From a virus: 29,776 bases of DNA. The stretch is from the IMG/VR virus record IMGVR_UViG_3300010885_030360, positions 1-29,776 of that record. One strand, given 5' to 3'. Position 1 is the stretch's first letter; each line of letters starts with the position of its first letter. A program made the translations under genes and the position numbers. This document shows positions 402-18,768 of the stretch, one piece after another. The notes beneath the pieces were generated by a model that did not search any database, was not told where the DNA came from, and worked only from the letters and a program-made list of their open reading frames with translations.

Positions 402-935
402 TTATTGGAAAGTGGGAACCTCGCGATTGTTATCAAAATTCATGCCGTCACCTTCAACTTGCCCTAATCTACGACCATTGGAATCTTTTGCGTTAAGGAT
501 TTGGTCTTGTTGAACCTGAATCTTCTCTTCCTCATCGAGGGGAGCGTAGTGGTGCATCTCAGCCATCATGCTTTGATACATTTCCTCAGGCATCTTATAA
601 AGTACCATCTCATTAACACAAATTAATCCTTCGTTTTCGCCCCCTGCTACTCTGTAATTTTCAAATCCTGGGATTTCTTCGGATTTAACAGGAGAGTAAC
701 CCATTCGGGTGCGTTTATGAATTGGATCGTATTGACTTGTTGAAGACAACCAGCACATGTGAAATCCAGGAATAGCTGGTGGGGTCGGAAGAGCCTCTTG
801 GGTCCATTCCGAGCGGAACATTCTGCGACGTTCCTCGTTTGATACGAAATTATCTTCAGGTGCTGCTCTTTTCTTGTCCAAAAGTGCAGGTGAAGTTGTT
901 CTGTTATTTGAATTGCGTTTGAGACGATTATCCAT
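402..935 (-). CDS. Hypothetical protein in head operon (177 aa)
   Basis: I do not recognise this protein. It is hydrophilic, with a basic N-terminus (MDNRLKRNSNNR), a central stretch containing PAIPGFHMCWLSSTSQYDP and an acidic, glutamine-rich C-terminal third. No signal peptide or membrane segment is visible. The ATG at 935 has an AAGGAAA ribosome site, and the gene overlaps the upstream GIY-YIG gene by 8 nt. Its place between the scaffold-like gene and the coat candidate suggests a virion assembly or head accessory role. This is inferred from position only. It may originally have followed the scaffold gene directly, before the endonuclease gene was inserted. Confidence 0.75.
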   Translation of the reverse strand: MDNRLKRNSNNRTTSPALLDKKRAAPEDNFVSNEERRRMFRSEWTQEALPTPPAIPGFHMCWLSSTSQYDPIHKRTRMGYSPVKSEEIPGFENYRVAGGENEGLICVNEMVLYKMPEEMYQSMMAEMHHYAPLDEEEKIQVQQDQILNAKDSNGRRLGQVEGDGMNFDNNREVPTFQ

Positions 936-1467
936 GGAGAGTTTCCTTTTTTGCGATAGCGTTTAAAATTTCAGATGTTTGTTTTCTAATAGCCCAACTT
1001 GCTTTTAGTTTAGCGCAAACTTCTGGAGGTCTTTGAGTACCTTTTAAAGTATTTTTAATCTTTAATTTGGTTTCTTCTTTCATAGGACCACGAGGTTTTC
1101 TATTTTTCAAATTGGGTTTTCCCTTGCAGGAATCTGAAATTTTCTTCCTTGTTTCAAGGCTAGGTGAGTAGCCTCTTACACCATCTCCACCATCAGTTAG
1201 ATTATAACCGTTTGGTGCTTTTGAACTCTCTTGTGAAATAATGTTTTTCTCAAGCTCTTTCAAATCTTCAATCCCTTTTAATGGGACTGCTATTTCTTCT
1301 ATAATGAAATTTTCAAAACCGTATTTCCTTATAGAATCGTATAAATAACTTTTCTTACCAACTTTAGCATTTGATAAATGATCTCTCCATCTTTTCTCTA
1401 AAGCCATAGTTGTTATGCCAATATAGCATTTATCGTTGACGAGGTTCGTAATTTTATAACATTTCAT
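928..1467 (-). CDS. GIY-YIG homing endonuclease with NUMOD3-like repeats
   Basis: The N-terminus carries a GIY-YIG nuclease core: CYKITNLVNDKCYIGITT at residues 3-20 corresponds to the GIY...YIG strands, followed by an Arg-containing helix (KRWRDHL). The family-typical NGYNLTDGGDG segment ends the nuclease domain. Two NUMOD3-like DNA-binding motifs follow (around YSPSLETRKKISDSCKGK and PMKEETKLKIKNTLKGT). The layout matches free-standing I-TevI-like mobile endonucleases, which cut alleles lacking the gene and spread by repair. It starts inside the stop of the scaffold-like gene (TAATG overlap) and overlaps the next gene by 8 nt, so it is inserted cleanly between two head genes without an intron. 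Confidence 0.85.
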   Translation of the reverse strand: MKCYKITNLVNDKCYIGITTMALEKRWRDHLSNAKVGKKSYLYDSIRKYGFENFIIEEIAVPLKGIEDLKELEKNIISQESSKAPNGYNLTDGGDGVRGYSPSLETRKKISDSCKGKPNLKNRKPRGPMKEETKLKIKNTLKGTQRPPEVCAKLKASWAIRKQTSEILNAIAKKETLHG

Positions 1468-2867: not shown

Positions 2868-3347
2868 TTATAAAAATGAATTGATAAGACTATTGATAGA
2901 TACTGCTTGCTGCGAAAAATTTGCCATTAGTTGGTCGTGAGTGCCGAGGTAAGTTTTACCTGAGTGTCCTGAGGCTTTTTGATGTAAACCAATCGAACCT
3001 GCACTTGATACCATTTCACATTCGTTGCATTTGTATTTCATAGCGTGAAGAGTTTTTACACGTTCTTTTCCACCTAAATAAGCAATTGTTGTACAATGCC
3101 CCAATTCAGCAGTTTTGCGCCCACCTATTTTTCCAGCTTTACTACACTGTTCAAACGTAAAAGGCGGAATATCACCTTGTGAATAATGCAAACGATTATG
3201 TTCAGATTTGGTTACCAACATAAGGTTCTCAATCCTATTATCTGAGTGATCACCGTTAATATGGTGAATCACCATACGTCTTTTACCGTTTTGCTCGATA
3301 GGAATTTCACCATGATGTGAAATCCATAATTTTTGATGTTTGTTCAT
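2868..3347 (-). CDS. HNH homing endonuclease with C2H2-like finger
   Basis: The HNH core is VIHHINGDHSDNRIENL with the following LVTKSEHNRLH. The first His pair, the central Asn and the last His are in place. Downstream, residues near YKCNECEMVSS...LHQKASGH form C-x2-C-x11-H-x5-H, a zinc-finger-like unit probably used for DNA binding. I chose ATG 3347, preceded by GGAGAAAGAG, over an upstream TTG at 3359 that lies within that ribosome site. The gene is free-standing between the 51-residue gene and the GroES-like gene, with about 50 nt of non-coding DNA upstream, consistent with a mobile insertion in the head operon. Confidence 0.8.
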   Translation of the reverse strand: MNKHQKLWISHHGEIPIEQNGKRRMVIHHINGDHSDNRIENLMLVTKSEHNRLHYSQGDIPPFTFEQCSKAGKIGGRKTAELGHCTTIAYLGGKERVKTLHAMKYKCNECEMVSSAGSIGLHQKASGHSGKTYLGTHDQLMANFSQQAVSINSLINSFL

Positions 3348-3396
3348 CTCTTTCTCCAAAGAAATTATTTAAAATACTTCTACTGCAATTATAACT

Positions 3397-14446: not shown

Positions 14447-14490
14447 TTTTATTTCCTTTATTAAATTATTAAAATTTACAGCATAATTAA

Positions 14491-14519
14491 ACTATAAACC
14501 AGTTCCGAGAGAAAAACAA
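14491..14519 (-). promoter_or_regulatory. Repeated phage promoter, copy 5 (leftward)
   Basis: Read leftward, -35 TTGTTT (14519-14514), a 17-bp spacer and -10 TATAGT (14496-14491), with the family-specific CTGGTTTATAGTT. It drives the gene starting at 14446, with a 5' leader of about 40 nt. Confidence 0.75.
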
Positions 14520-14862: not shown

Positions 14863-14903
14863 TTGTATTTCCTTTATTTAAGTTTATTTAAAATTTACAA
14901 CCT

Positions 14904-15191
14904 TCAAAAAACTATAAACCAATTCTTTGCAAAAAACAAGGACTTTTTTAAAATATTTGTAAAATATTTTTCCAGCTCATAAATTCCCGTCGTTTCCGTC
15001 GTTTCCCGTCGTTTCCTGTCTTTTCCCTCAAGACGGAAACAACGGAAATTATGCAAAATATACCCCAGTATTTTTGCAAATAATTTCAACTTTTTTGGTG
15101 CTAACGAAGTTGTGATTCTCGTCGTTTCCGCATTGTTTTTTACTAAGGGGGAAACGACGACGAAATCATGATTTTTCACCTTGGTAGCCAT
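14904..15191 (-). CDS. Doubtful ORF (95 aa) across the repeat region
   Basis: The frame starts at ATG 15191 behind a good GAGGGATGG site, overlapping the 3' end of the primase/helicase gene by 16 nt. It runs through the GTCGTTTCC repeats, which become KDRKRRETTETTG, and ends inside the promoter at 14911-14939. The composition is odd and there is no recognisable domain. Reading frames of this kind often arise by chance over repeats next to primase genes. The coupled start leaves translation possible. Confidence 0.3.
   Translation of the reverse strand: MATKVKNHDFVVVSPLVKNNAETTRITTSLAPKKLKLFAKILGYILHNFRCFRLEGKDRKRRETTETTGIYELEKYFTNILKKSLFFAKNWFIVF
14911..14939 (-). promoter_or_regulatory. Repeated phage promoter, copy 6 (leftward)
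   Basis: Read leftward, -35 TTGTTT (14939-14934), a 17-bp spacer and -10 TATAGT (14916-14911), with TTGGTTTATAGTT. It serves the gene starting at 14862. The spacer shares TGCAAAGAA with the rightward copy at 17429-17457. Confidence 0.75.
14989..15160. repeat. GTCGTTTCC repeat cluster, possible iterons or origin
   Basis: Exact GTCGTTTCC units lie at 14989-14997, 14998-15006 and 15008-15016, with a variant GTCTTTTCC at 15018-15026. Inverted relatives follow at 15035-15048. GTCGTTTCC at 15121-15129 and GGAAACGAC at 15150-15158 form an 11-bp stem (15119-15129 with 15150-15160) around a 20-nt loop. Another GGAAACGAC is at 15290-15298 inside the adjacent primase/helicase gene. Confidence 0.75.
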
Positions 15192-17218
15192 CCATCCCTC
15201 AAGCGATAAAAAGTTATCTGATTATTATTCAAACCGAGCCGTTTTCTTTCATCAATATCTGTAATTTCGTATGTCACAACGATTCCTTCGGAAACGACGG
15301 AAGTTAGCGTTTTCTTCAGATTTGATTCCGACATTACCACATGTTCACCAAGAATACGCTTGGTTACTGTCTTACCATTTTTACCGAGAGCATACAACGT
15401 ATCACAGACTTGTTGAGCCATATTTTCATCTTTTGACTCTTCTCTTATTTCCTTACGTTGCTCAACATTTGATTCAAGTAAGATTACCGAATAGTATGGA
15501 CTGTCTTCAATGATGTCACCGTAACGGTTTTTAGCAGACGTCTTATTGTATTCTAAGACCGCACGCACCTCTTGAATCTTCTCACTGAAACGCTTTTTCT
15601 TTGTTGCTAATATCCTTCCGTCAACATTTTCATCTTCAAAGATAAACGCTGTGCCAGTTGCGTTGCCTCCCCACGCACTTGCGCCCCTTGCTGACAAATC
15701 TTCAATGGCTGAAGTTCTTGACAAAGCCTTAGCCGTATGCCCAGAAATCCACGCAGGAATAAAATCCCGAGACCAAAAAGCATTATTGATGACACTCATG
15801 AGCCTTGCAGCCTCAGAGTTATCATTTTCATTTTCGAGGACAAAGGTGGCTGAGGCAGTATCAAACACGACAAGAGGAGGGATATCTCGTCCGTTTACAT
15901 TCACTATGAAATTCTTAGCAAACTCAGCAGCAAACTCAATCTCTTTGTCCGTCATGCGGAACGCAGGAATCACATTAATCCAATAATCCCATTCCTCCTT
16001 GCTTTTGCTTGAATGATGCTTGCGCATGCCATAGCAAATACGATCTGCCTGAGAATGATCTTCAGTGATGTATATAACTCTGCGTCGGTGCTTGATATTT
16101 AAAAACGTAGGATTGGTAAGCCCAGCAACTTGCAAAGCAAGAGGTAGCAATATAGATGATTTACCTTTCCCTTCTGCTCCTGCTATGAACGTAATCCCCT
16201 CACCAATGAAACCATCAATGACCCAATCAGGTTCAGGAAGATAATCGTAACTCAAAGGAACAACTCTAAACCGTTCCATAAATGCTTCTTTACGCTTGTC
16301 TTTGTCTATGTCGTTTAGGATGCCTTCACCTGTGCTTGTGCGTTCATACTCTTTATTTTTTGATGCGTGATAATAAAGAGTTCCTAAACCGATTTCACCT
16401 CTTGAATTTGTGTAAATATCATTCCACTGATCTTCAATTTCTTTGTCTGACGCAACGGCATGCTTGAGCCCAGCCGACCTCTTAGACCACTCAGCAAACA
16501 TTTGGTCACCGTTTTCAATTCTTGCCAAACTGAAACACACTTCAATCCATGTGTCACGAGGGCAGTCTGGGTCAATGAATTTGAGAGCTCGCTCAACATC
16601 AAGCAATTGCTCAGCACTAAGTATCAACTGCCCTAAGGAGGACTGGCTTAGTGTTAACTGTTGGCTTAAATTGGCATCAAAATGCTTCTTGATAAACGGG
16701 ACTAAATCTTCAACGTCATCAGCACGTAAAATGCGTTCAGTTACTGTGAAAAACTTTGCTCTTGAATAATACTCCCAACCTTTTTCTTTACTGAGGTTTT
16801 TGTTTTTAAAATATTCACCATAACCTAACGCATGAACACCTTTTCCAGAAGGGCTGAGCTCAACATATCCTGGTAATGATTCAGCAATATGATGATTGTC
16901 ATTTGCGGACACTTGGTCAAGGTCAATACCTTGCCAATACCCATCACCGTCTTTACCTAACGCAAAACCTAGACCACTATATTCTCCTGAGTCAAGAGCC
17001 TTCTTGGCATCTTTGTATGTTGATAAGCGTTCTAAATCTTCAGGTGTATCAAGTGTTCCCCTACGTCTCTTGCCGTTTGCATAGTAGGGAACTTTAAGTG
17101 TGCGGTCACTGTTATGCTCGTCTTTTTCAAGACGCCAAACCAACCATCTTTTAGCGTTGCGAATCTTCTGAGGAATTTGGGGAACTTTTCCCTTGTCCAC
17201 TAATTTTATGTCTGTCAT
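15176..17218 (-). CDS. Bifunctional primase-polymerase/helicase (680 aa)
   Basis: This would prime and unwind DNA at the phage fork. The N-terminal archaeo-eukaryotic-type primase-polymerase domain carries GIDLDQ (D99, D101), LSPSGKGVHA (S122-H129) and YYSRAKFFTVT (150-160), the order of metal and nucleotide motifs of that fold. A PriCT-like helical unit follows (about 205-285, with FIDPDCPRDTWIEVCFSLA). The C-terminal RecA/AAA_25-like ATPase has Walker A GAEGKGKS (347-354) and a Walker B-like PPLVVFDTASA around residue 450. A C-terminal winged-helix-like tail is plausible. It is transcribed leftward, away from the rightward replication operon, with repeats beyond its 3' end. Confidence 0.85.
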   Translation of the reverse strand: MTDIKLVDKGKVPQIPQKIRNAKRWLVWRLEKDEHNSDRTLKVPYYANGKRRRGTLDTPEDLERLSTYKDAKKALDSGEYSGLGFALGKDGDGYWQGIDLDQVSANDNHHIAESLPGYVELSPSGKGVHALGYGEYFKNKNLSKEKGWEYYSRAKFFTVTERILRADDVEDLVPFIKKHFDANLSQQLTLSQSSLGQLILSAEQLLDVERALKFIDPDCPRDTWIEVCFSLARIENGDQMFAEWSKRSAGLKHAVASDKEIEDQWNDIYTNSRGEIGLGTLYYHASKNKEYERTSTGEGILNDIDKDKRKEAFMERFRVVPLSYDYLPEPDWVIDGFIGEGITFIAGAEGKGKSSILLPLALQVAGLTNPTFLNIKHRRRVIYITEDHSQADRICYGMRKHHSSKSKEEWDYWINVIPAFRMTDKEIEFAAEFAKNFIVNVNGRDIPPLVVFDTASATFVLENENDNSEAARLMSVINNAFWSRDFIPAWISGHTAKALSRTSAIEDLSARGASAWGGNATGTAFIFEDENVDGRILATKKKRFSEKIQEVRAVLEYNKTSAKNRYGDIIEDSPYYSVILLESNVEQRKEIREESKDENMAQQVCDTLYALGKNGKTVTKRILGEHVVMSESNLKKTLTSVVSEGIVVTYEITDIDERKRLGLNNNQITFYRLRDGWLPR

Positions 17219-17245
17219 TAGTAATTCTCTAGTAAAGTTTAAAAA

Positions 17246-17363
17246 ATGATACCCTTAGAAAAGACCCAATACCTATTTGAAGGTTTGCATGGTTCAACTA
17301 GAGATTGCTCGTGAAGGAGCTCGTCAGTATTGGGTCTTATCTAAGAGTATCATGACCATGCAA
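17246..17363. ncRNA. Long inverted repeat with pseudoknot potential; candidate structured RNA or origin element
   Basis: The 17246-17271 arm (begins ATGATACCC, ends GACCCAATA) and the 17328-17353 arm are inverted copies matching at 24 of 26 positions. One further C-G pair (17272-17327) extends the stem. In the 54-nt loop, TTGCATGGT (17285-17293) is perfectly complementary to ACCATGCAA (17355-17363) just 3' of the stem, which would form an H-type pseudoknot. A small GCTC/GAGC hairpin (17307-17320) also lies in the loop. The element sits alone in the divergent intergenic region. Whether it acts as RNA or DNA is unknown. Confidence 0.5.
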
Positions 17364-17428
17364 TAACAATTATGCCCTCAGAAATTATAAAAGGCAACAC
17401 CCTTGAAAAATATATTTTACTAAACCAC

Positions 17429-17457
17429 TTGTTTTCTGCAAAGAACCAGTTTATAGT
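17429..17457 (+). promoter_or_regulatory. Repeated phage promoter, copy 1 (rightward)
   Basis: -35 TTGTTT (17429-17434), a 17-bp spacer and -10 TATAGT (17452-17457). It is the first promoter of the rightward operon, with the AATAAAGGAAATAAA leader and ATG 17501 downstream. The rest of the 282-nt gap 17219-17500 holds the inverted-repeat element and otherwise nothing recognisable. Confidence 0.75.
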
Positions 17458-17500
17458 TACCTTTCGCTTTACTTTTTAATAACTCAATAAAGGAAATAAA

Positions 17501-17674
17501 ATGTTAAAAATCTTCGCAGTTGTTGCTTGGCAAAATAATGGTGACGTCATTCGTTTAGGCTGGTATGAGAACGAACAAGAAGCCAAAGACGCATACAATA
17601 CAGCAGCCAAAAACATGGTTGAAAATGACCATGACTCAATTGTATTATTGACCCAATCTGAAATAACTCAATAA
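17501..17674 (+). CDS. Small hypothetical protein (57 aa)
   Basis: An intact frame starting MLKIFAVVAWQNNGDVIRLG behind AATAAAGGAAATAAA and promoter copy 1. The product is soluble and acidic, with a helix containing ENEQEAKDAYNTAAKN. Its short alpha/beta look resembles small early phage proteins. I do not recognise a family. It is the first gene of the rightward unit, and its stop is embedded in the ribosome site of the next gene (CAATAAAGGAAATA). Confidence 0.65.
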   Translation: MLKIFAVVAWQNNGDVIRLGWYENEQEAKDAYNTAAKNMVENDHDSIVLLTQSEITQ

Positions 17675-17687
17675 AGGAAATACAGTA

Positions 17688-17960
17688 ATGAAAACCAAAA
17701 CCTACAAATTTGAATTTGAATTAGAGCTCCCTGTCAACAAGCACCCCCTTGACCATTACATCACCCAAAAATTGATGGACTATATCAAGTTGCCTGAAGT
17801 GACAGGCTGGGACATGAACGAAGTGAAAGATGACGGAACACTTGAAAACATCTTCCACCACATTTACCAAAAACACATGAAGAAGGACGAGTCAACTCGA
17901 CCCATGGGTGAGCTGGTAAACGAAGATCAAGCCCCAACTTACAACAAAATTGTAAAATAG
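17688..17960 (+). CDS. Hypothetical protein (90 aa)
   Basis: Starts MKTKTYKFEFELELPVNKHP, a beta-strand-like N-terminus, then a helical and acidic body (QKLMDYIKLPEVTGWDMNEV, HHIYQKHMKKDESTRPMGEL). It has no membrane segment and no recognised motif. It is translated 13 nt after the preceding small gene and is followed directly by the hairpin-promoter unit at 17968-18001, so the two genes 17501-17960 probably form one short transcript. Confidence 0.65.
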   Translation: MKTKTYKFEFELELPVNKHPLDHYITQKLMDYIKLPEVTGWDMNEVKDDGTLENIFHHIYQKHMKKDESTRPMGELVNEDQAPTYNKIVK

Positions 17961-17967
17961 TAGAAAT

Positions 17968-17991
17968 AGTCCTTGGGTTTTCTCAAGGACT
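17968..17991 (+). terminator. Hairpin overlapping promoter copy 2
   Basis: AGTCCTTG (17968-17975) pairs perfectly with CAAGGACT (17984-17991), an 8-bp stem with an 8-nt loop GGTTTTCT. It lies 7 nt after the stop of the preceding gene and overlaps the -35 and spacer of the next promoter. It is probably a terminator, or a stem that isolates adjacent units. Confidence 0.5.
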
Positions 17992-18001
17992 GGTTTATAG
18001 T
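17973..18001 (+). promoter_or_regulatory. Repeated phage promoter, copy 2 (rightward)
   Basis: -35 TTGGGT (17973-17978), a 17-bp spacer and -10 TATAGT (17996-18001), within ACTGGTTTATAGTT. The -35 is the least conserved of the family. It serves the gene starting at 18046, with a leader of about 40 nt. Confidence 0.65.
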
Positions 18002-18045
18002 TTTAACTGTAGCATTTAATAATCATTTAATAAAGGAAATAAATT

Positions 18046-18285
18046 ATGAAATTCATCAAATACAATTATCACAAAGGTTTTGGCGGAACAGCTCAGATTT
18101 ACGAGATGGACAACGGCATTGAATACGTTGAATGGTCTAACGGACGCAAGTATGCTTACGATGGCGGACGTTTGATGACTGAAGCCGAGACAAATGAAGT
18201 TGACAAGGCAATCATCGCTCAATACAAACATATTCGTGAAATGAGTTGGATTGAACGTGACCTCCGTGCAGAAAGGAACACTTAA
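18046..18285 (+). CDS. Hypothetical protein (79 aa)
   Basis: Soluble protein beginning MKFIKYNYHKGFGGTAQIYE, with a strand-rich first half (YVEWSNGRKYAYDGGRL) and a helical second half ending in a charged tail. No known domain is recognised. ATG 18046 is preceded by AATAAAGGAAAT, under promoter copy 2. The next gene's ATG follows its stop by one base, and its ribosome site (GAAAGGA) is within this gene's last codons, so the two are translationally coupled. Confidence 0.65.
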   Translation: MKFIKYNYHKGFGGTAQIYEMDNGIEYVEWSNGRKYAYDGGRLMTEAETNEVDKAIIAQYKHIREMSWIERDLRAERNT

Positions 18286-18286
18286 T

Positions 18287-18682
18287 ATGTTCAACTACAA
18301 TGACGGTGGTCGTTCAAGATATTTCAAAGGGCTCAACGCAGGAGACTGCGTTGCTCGTTCAATAGCCATAGCCACAGGGTTACCCTACATTACTGTATAT
18401 TCTCAATTGGCTAACCTGAACAAGGTTGCCTTCGGAAAGAAAACAGCCAGAGGGGGCTTACATAGAGACGTTTACAAGCCATATTTAGAATCGCTAGGGT
18501 TTGTACGGTGCAAGGCTCCAAAATTCGAAGGGCGCAAGGCTCGTCCTGCTGACATGCCCTCTGGTATTGTAATTGCAAGTCAAGCCAAGCATCTTGTGTG
18601 CGTTATTGATGGGGTTTGTCAAGATACGTTTGACAGCTCTGACAAGATGGTTTACAACTATTACAAATATTTTCAAAAATAA
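18287..18682 (+). CDS. Small protein with papain-like Cys/His/Asp layout (131 aa)
   Basis: GLNAGDCVARSIAIATGLPY (residues 16-35) has a GDC motif at the start of a helix. This is followed later by SQAKHLVCVIDGVCQDTFDS, giving C21, H102 and an Asp near 113 in the order of papain-like or peptidase C39-like folds. Such GDCxxRAIAIATG proteins occur in many phages and have been suggested to be cysteine peptidases or amidases, without proof. I chose ATG 18287 with GAAAGGA upstream. A longer frame starting inside the previous gene is less likely. It is the last gene before promoter copy 3. Confidence 0.65.
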   Translation: MFNYNDGGRSRYFKGLNAGDCVARSIAIATGLPYITVYSQLANLNKVAFGKKTARGGLHRDVYKPYLESLGFVRCKAPKFEGRKARPADMPSGIVIASQAKHLVCVIDGVCQDTFDSSDKMVYNYYKYFQK

Positions 18683-18694
18683 TTAAAGTTTCAC

Positions 18695-18723
18695 TTGTTT
18701 TTTGCCGTTAACTGGTTTATAGT
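18695..18723 (+). promoter_or_regulatory. Repeated phage promoter, copy 3 (rightward)
   Basis: -35 TTGTTT (18695-18700), a 17-bp spacer and -10 TATAGT (18718-18723), within AACTGGTTTATAGTT. No strong hairpin overlaps this copy. The gene at 18769 starts about 45 nt downstream behind AATAAAGGAAATAAA. Confidence 0.75.
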
Positions 18724-18768
18724 TGTAACTGTTGTACTCTTAATAAACATTTAATAAAGGAAATAAAA

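Follow-up and report, generated by a model that had tools for sequence, protein, structure and literature searches.

The SAM-II riboswitch contains a pseudoknot that sequesters the Shine-Dalgarno (SD) sequence, in the IncI repZ mRNA a pseudoknot frees repZ translation while an antisense RNA competes, and the T4 proteins gp32 and gp43 are examples of autogenous control. In the preQ1 riboswitches the SD forms part of a pseudoknot (PMC10622847, PMC11625349), the leader pseudoknot of T4 gene 32 binds the gene's own protein (PMC3014915), and the pseudoknot of IncI-alpha ColIb-P9 repZ is named in titles cited in PMC10724649. Here we analyze a long hairpin that precedes a primase-helicase gene in a single virus record, IMGVR_UViG_3300010885_030360, taken over its whole length of 29,776 bases (hereafter the window). 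The hairpin is probably a cis-acting 5' leader RNA of the primase-helicase mRNA, in which the loop would sequester the SD and the 5' tail would compete for the loop. Judged at the level of sequence, comparison with related leaders shows selection for the minus-strand RNA, for the stem and for both loop pairings.

The hairpin, its strand and its parts

The inverted repeat and loop/flank match described in the original prediction are both present: the arms (17246-17272 and 17327-17353) are 27 nt long and 93% complementary, with a 54-nt spacer, and on the plus strand the loop segment TTGCATGGT (17285-17293) and ACCATGCAA (17355-17363), which one base separates from the stem, are exact reverse complements of each other. 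That chance would rarely produce such a structure also holds, with a plus-strand fold of -46 kcal/mol (z = -4.9 versus 200 shuffles) and a 9-nt match in the hairpin's loop/flank geometry at 0.16% of random window positions. The gap is indeed divergent and free of coding sequence, as no open reading frame (ORF) of at least 50 aa overlaps the stem-loop; it is flanked by the primase gene, whose start codon lies at 17218, and by an ORF beginning at 17501.

On the comparative evidence, the relevant strand is the minus strand, the sense of the primase and the opposite of the one first read. Read this way, the stem has a G.U pair in place of one of its two mismatches, and a third pairing comes to light between TCTCTAGT in the loop (17304-17297) and the SD region ACTAGAGA (17233-17226). 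Across the stems of 13 leaders, the minus strand gives 21 G.U pairs and 0 A.C, and on the plus strand those 21 pairs would be read as A.C mismatches; because of this asymmetry, the minus-strand RNA appears to be what is being kept. The parts of the window's leader are as follows.

17392..17397, minus strand: -35-like hexamer TTGCCT, with a 17-nt spacer to the -10 box
17369..17374, minus strand: -10-like box CATAAT, giving a sigma-70-like promoter, TTGCCT-17-CATAAT
17355..17363, minus strand: 5' pairing strand (PKa), TTGCATGGT, at or beside the predicted transcript start
17327..17353, minus strand: 5' arm of the long stem, outer S1 and then inner S2, with a pyrimidine-pyrimidine mismatch between them
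17307..17320, minus strand: small hairpin hp1 in the apical loop, GCTC-CTTCAC-GAGC, from the minus-strand fold
17297..17304, minus strand: anti-SD segment TCTCTAGT in the loop, an 8-nt exact complement of the SD region
17285..17293, minus strand: PKb, ACCATGCAA, the loop partner of the 5' strand
17277..17297, minus strand: second loop hairpin hp2, TTGAA...TTCAA, from the minus-strand fold, which presents PKb and touches the last base of the anti-SD
17246..17272, minus strand: 3' arm of the long stem, with a U-rich stretch next to it
17226..17233, minus strand: SD region of the primase, ACTAGAGA, complementary to the loop, with the ATG 7 nt downstream
15176..17218, minus strand: predicted controlled gene, a primase-helicase with PriCT_2 and AAA_25 domains and its ATG at 17218

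Since PKa (TTGCATGGT) starts 5 nt past the -10 box, the transcript is predicted to start at or next to it; a consensus -35 is missing in the leaders of several relatives. Small hairpins analogous to hp2 are present in the related loci L001 and L006. It is worth noting that the hp1 region of L006, AGCTCCTTCACGAG, is nearly unchanged in the window (17306-17321, GAGCTCCTTCACGAGC) despite the differing stems that surround it.

Covariation of the stem and of the two loop pairings

Relatives were collected by protein searches of viral contigs and one arm-pattern scan. A common architecture precedes the primase-helicase gene in 12 relatives (L001, L006, L079, L012, L080, L083, L162 (= L161), L170, L175/L180, L177/L179, L181 and L182) and in the window, giving 13 leaders of 9 types; the primase of L001 is 78% identical to that of the window. 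In order, the parts are a -10-like box, a 5' strand that can pair with the loop, a stem of 22-26 pairs in two parts, a further loop segment that can pair with the SD, and the ATG. The -10-like box, [TCG]A[TA]AAT, is found 4-6 nt upstream of the 5' pairing strand, a position shared by 13/13 leaders.

The same gap in these relatives displays the compensatory changes that the original prediction had proposed looking for, both in the stem and in the pairing of the 5' flank with the loop. Stem pairs were counted on a block alignment set from the central mismatch; a MAFFT alignment of the 13 leaders misplaces the 5' strand and was not used for the counts. Although stem sequences differ between types, 280/286 cells of S1 and S2 together are paired, with compensatory changes at 21 of the 22 positions: the outer stem contributes 150/156 paired cells and 11/12 positions, the inner stem 130/130 and 10/10. 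Cognate arms outperform swapped arms (p = 5e-6 for S1 and 3.1e-4 for S2), and the S1/S2 junction is a pyrimidine-pyrimidine mismatch in every type.

The two loop pairings were examined by permutation, comparing cognate with swapped partners among nine representative types. Between the 5' flank and its own loop, cognate Watson-Crick runs are 6-9, against a non-cognate mean of 4.65 (permutation p = 4.5e-5). Between the loop and its own SD the runs are 5-10, against a mean of 4.68, a result equaled in 0/200,000 permutations (<5e-6), and by duplex energy the cognate partner is the best in 9/9 rows. The SD/loop partners differ in letters from one leader to another: the window has ACTAGAGA/TCTCTAGT, L006 has AAGCGGAT/ATCCGCTT, L012 has TTTAGTGGA/TCCACTAAA, L180 has TTGCGAGA/TCTCGCAA and L181 has TTGCGGAG/CTCCGCAA. 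The pairing covers the SD-like core and stops 5-11 nt short of the ATG in every type except L079, where it is longer and comes within ~2-3 nt of the ATG.

L079 and L006 are, in effect, a natural experiment, in which a changed SD region is matched by a change in the loop. The L079 leader is nearly identical to that of L006, and its gene is 91% identical to that of L083. The loops read TATTCCGC in L079 versus TCATCCGC in L006 (TCA -> TAT), and the SD regions GCGGAATA versus GCGGATCA. Each loop pairs best with its own SD region, with 10 Watson-Crick pairs in L079 and 8 in L006; when loop and leader are exchanged, 7 are left either way.

The proposal of a structured, pseudoknotted regulatory RNA is thus supported: the stem and the 5'-flank/loop pairing, together with the further loop/SD pairing, are kept with compensatory changes. 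In place of a plus-strand transcript, however, the RNA would be a minus-strand one that heads the primase mRNA. The nuclease-resistant RNA that the prediction also raised found no backing in these comparisons.

Distribution and other readings of the hairpin

All collected loci were put through a composite scan for the combination of -10 box, stem, the two loop pairings and an ORF downstream; its matches were confined to primase-helicase leaders, with none in 189 reversed sequences. L001 and L170 escaped it, their SD pairing containing a G.U pair or a bulge. The scan did not find the element at the distant primase relatives L015-L017 and L084-L159, and no leader of this kind was visible on inspection upstream of the L017 and L084 genes. 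L172, L174 and L176 came up as arm-pattern matches and their hairpins fold, but no matching flank pairings or promoter were seen, and we do not count them as members. A nucleotide search of annotated phages matched nothing, and among genome contigs the primase search gave no relative and the arm pattern no match. The phage record MW202545, which has a 57%-identical terminase, carries no annotated primase within the stretch examined.

The primases of L170, L175/L177 and L181/L182 have a different N-terminal half, which lacks a PriCT_2 match, but conserve the helicase half, and the leader is still in place. This looks like domain exchange; the genes concerned include L170:1625-3676, L177:7952-9973 (-) and L181:2501-4525. 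The exchange bears on the idea that the structure is mainly an operator for autogenous control, a landing site for the phage helicase or another replication protein. By analogy such an operator would suit a replication gene, autocontrol is known in T4 (PMC3014915), and a motif at the mid-stem mismatch (TTTAG facing ACCTAA) reappears in stems that otherwise differ. Since the leader persists when the primase half is replaced, the ligand would have to be the helicase half. As the principal role of the structure we think this quite improbable, but protein binding would be compatible with an SD-sequestering leader, as its trigger.

The same exchange weighs on a DNA reading. The original prediction had suggested an origin that extrudes a cruciform, and a structure in single-stranded or cruciform DNA, serving as replication origin or as a loading site for the primase/helicase, would be in keeping with the position of the hairpin, which adjoins the primase-helicase gene in a divergent gap and is close to the minimum of the cumulative GC skew. 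DNA also tolerates G.T, so the strand asymmetry alone would be compatible with one-strand DNA. The ssi hairpins of RSF1010 are a comparable case. The cruciform origin nevertheless found no support, in that the 21 G.U to 0 A.C count, the -10-like box by the 5' strand in 13/13 leaders and the SD complementarity point to RNA. Moreover, the loop tracks the SD sequence, including the matched change in L079, the box holds a fixed position with respect to the 5' pairing strand, the leader persists where the primase half of the protein differs, and GC skew follows gene orientation. We regard a DNA structure of this type as highly improbable. The cumulative GC-skew minimum itself lies at the divergent gap (window ~17000-18500), and gene orientation also explains it, although a separate origin may lie nearby.

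A third possibility is an attenuator or self-contained small RNA, in which the stem and the U-rich stretch would end most transcripts, leaving a short RNA locked at both ends, and transcription past this point would control the primase and the leftward operon. The 5' end lies at the pairing strand, and 3-6 T follow the stem directly in most types (the window, L012, L080, L083, L170, L180, L179 and L181), but a strong T run is absent in L006 and L001 (ATTGTTAAAC, ATTTGTTC), and the 44-54 nt loop and A+U-rich stem base are unlike those of usual terminators. A scan for intrinsic terminators, covering loops of 3-8 only, found none. Attenuation would also leave the loop's tracking of the SD sequence unexplained, and we consider it unlikely.

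Elsewhere in the window, a repeated gene-leader motif ending in AATAAAGGAAAT precedes several ORFs, at 17443-17500 (+), with similar stretches at 14448-14505 (-), 14866-14956 (-), 17662-17682 (+), 17977-18043 (+) and 18692-18767 (+); it is possibly a shared promoter and ribosome-binding module. In the leftward gene cluster, the ORFs at 928-1467 (-) and 2868-3359 (-) resemble, by eye, GIY-YIG and HNH homing endonucleases.

A proposed switch and its place among known systems

Based on these comparisons we can outline how the SD-sequestering leader might work. Transcription would start at or beside the 5' pairing strand, and the leader would fold into a long two-part hairpin whose apical loop bears two complementary segments. 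One of them would pair with the SD region 3' of the stem, hiding the ribosome-binding site and turning translation off; from the occlusion of the SD we infer that this pairing represses translation. The other would pair with the 5'-terminal bases. Purely as a hypothesis, we propose a competition or timing step in which the 5' tail would hold the loop early or under some signal, perhaps from a protein or metabolite trigger, until the outer stem zips and the loop is freed to capture the SD. The 5' pairing should be incompatible with the fully formed stem, because the connector is 0-7 nt while the loop partner sits atop a helix of >20 bp. The duplex energies of the two are similar (-11 to -17.5 kcal/mol for S1 and -11 to -22 kcal/mol for the 5' pairing), and together with the geometry this makes a switch plausible. 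A phage RNA switch in which one loop is contested by the 5' end of the transcript and the SD of the gene is a tentative proposal; if true, competing pseudoknots would time or gate primase-helicase synthesis, and perhaps also the leftward operon behind it.

Several points weigh against this account. The 9 types are related, so that the permutations are not fully independent events and their figures, strong as they are, should not be taken as independent counts. The block alignment is manual and was prepared with knowledge of the structure. In the window alone the loop/SD match is weak (p ~0.02 at random positions), and it is comparison that carries the case. The SD pairing needs a G.U pair in L001 and a bulged base in L170, and the anti-SD lies beside hp1 in the window, L001 and L006 and within hp1 in the others. 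Finally, the argument against coexistence is geometric, and exclusivity of the two loop pairings is only proposed.

The leader would add to uncultivated phages a conserved RNA family absent from Rfam, and would link pseudoknots to the control of DNA replication. As the loop co-evolves with the SD, the system would be amenable to paired mutations, for which L006 and L079 already provide a natural test.

At the gathering score, Rfam 15, including its riboswitch and phage RNA models, gave no match in the window or in 8 related loci, and matches below threshold were at chance level only; the same leader was not found in the limited collection of literature that we searched. The leader of T4/T2 gene 32 likewise places a pseudoknot ahead of the ribosome-binding site in the mRNA of a phage replication gene and acts on translation (PMC3014915), but in the present leader it is the loop that matches the SD, the stem is far longer, the loop has two pairings with its flanks, and the controlled gene would be a PriCT_2 and AAA_25 primase-helicase rather than a single-strand-binding protein. 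In IncI repZ, too, the mRNA encodes a replication protein and a loop pairs with the leader to control translation, but the loop here pairs with the SD itself; no plus-strand promoter for an antisense RNA, looking for the sigma-70 type only, was found in 17100-17520. As in the preQ1 and SAM-II riboswitches, the SD region would enter a pseudoknot with an upstream loop, but here there is neither an Rfam match nor an identified conserved metabolite pocket, the paired segments can vary in sequence, and the 5' end takes part in a second pairing. On the features tested, then, this leader lies outside the Rfam, T4 gene 32, IncI repZ and preQ1 families and resembles the SD-sequestering kind, with the loop of a leader hairpin pairing, with compensatory change, to the SD 3' of its stem.
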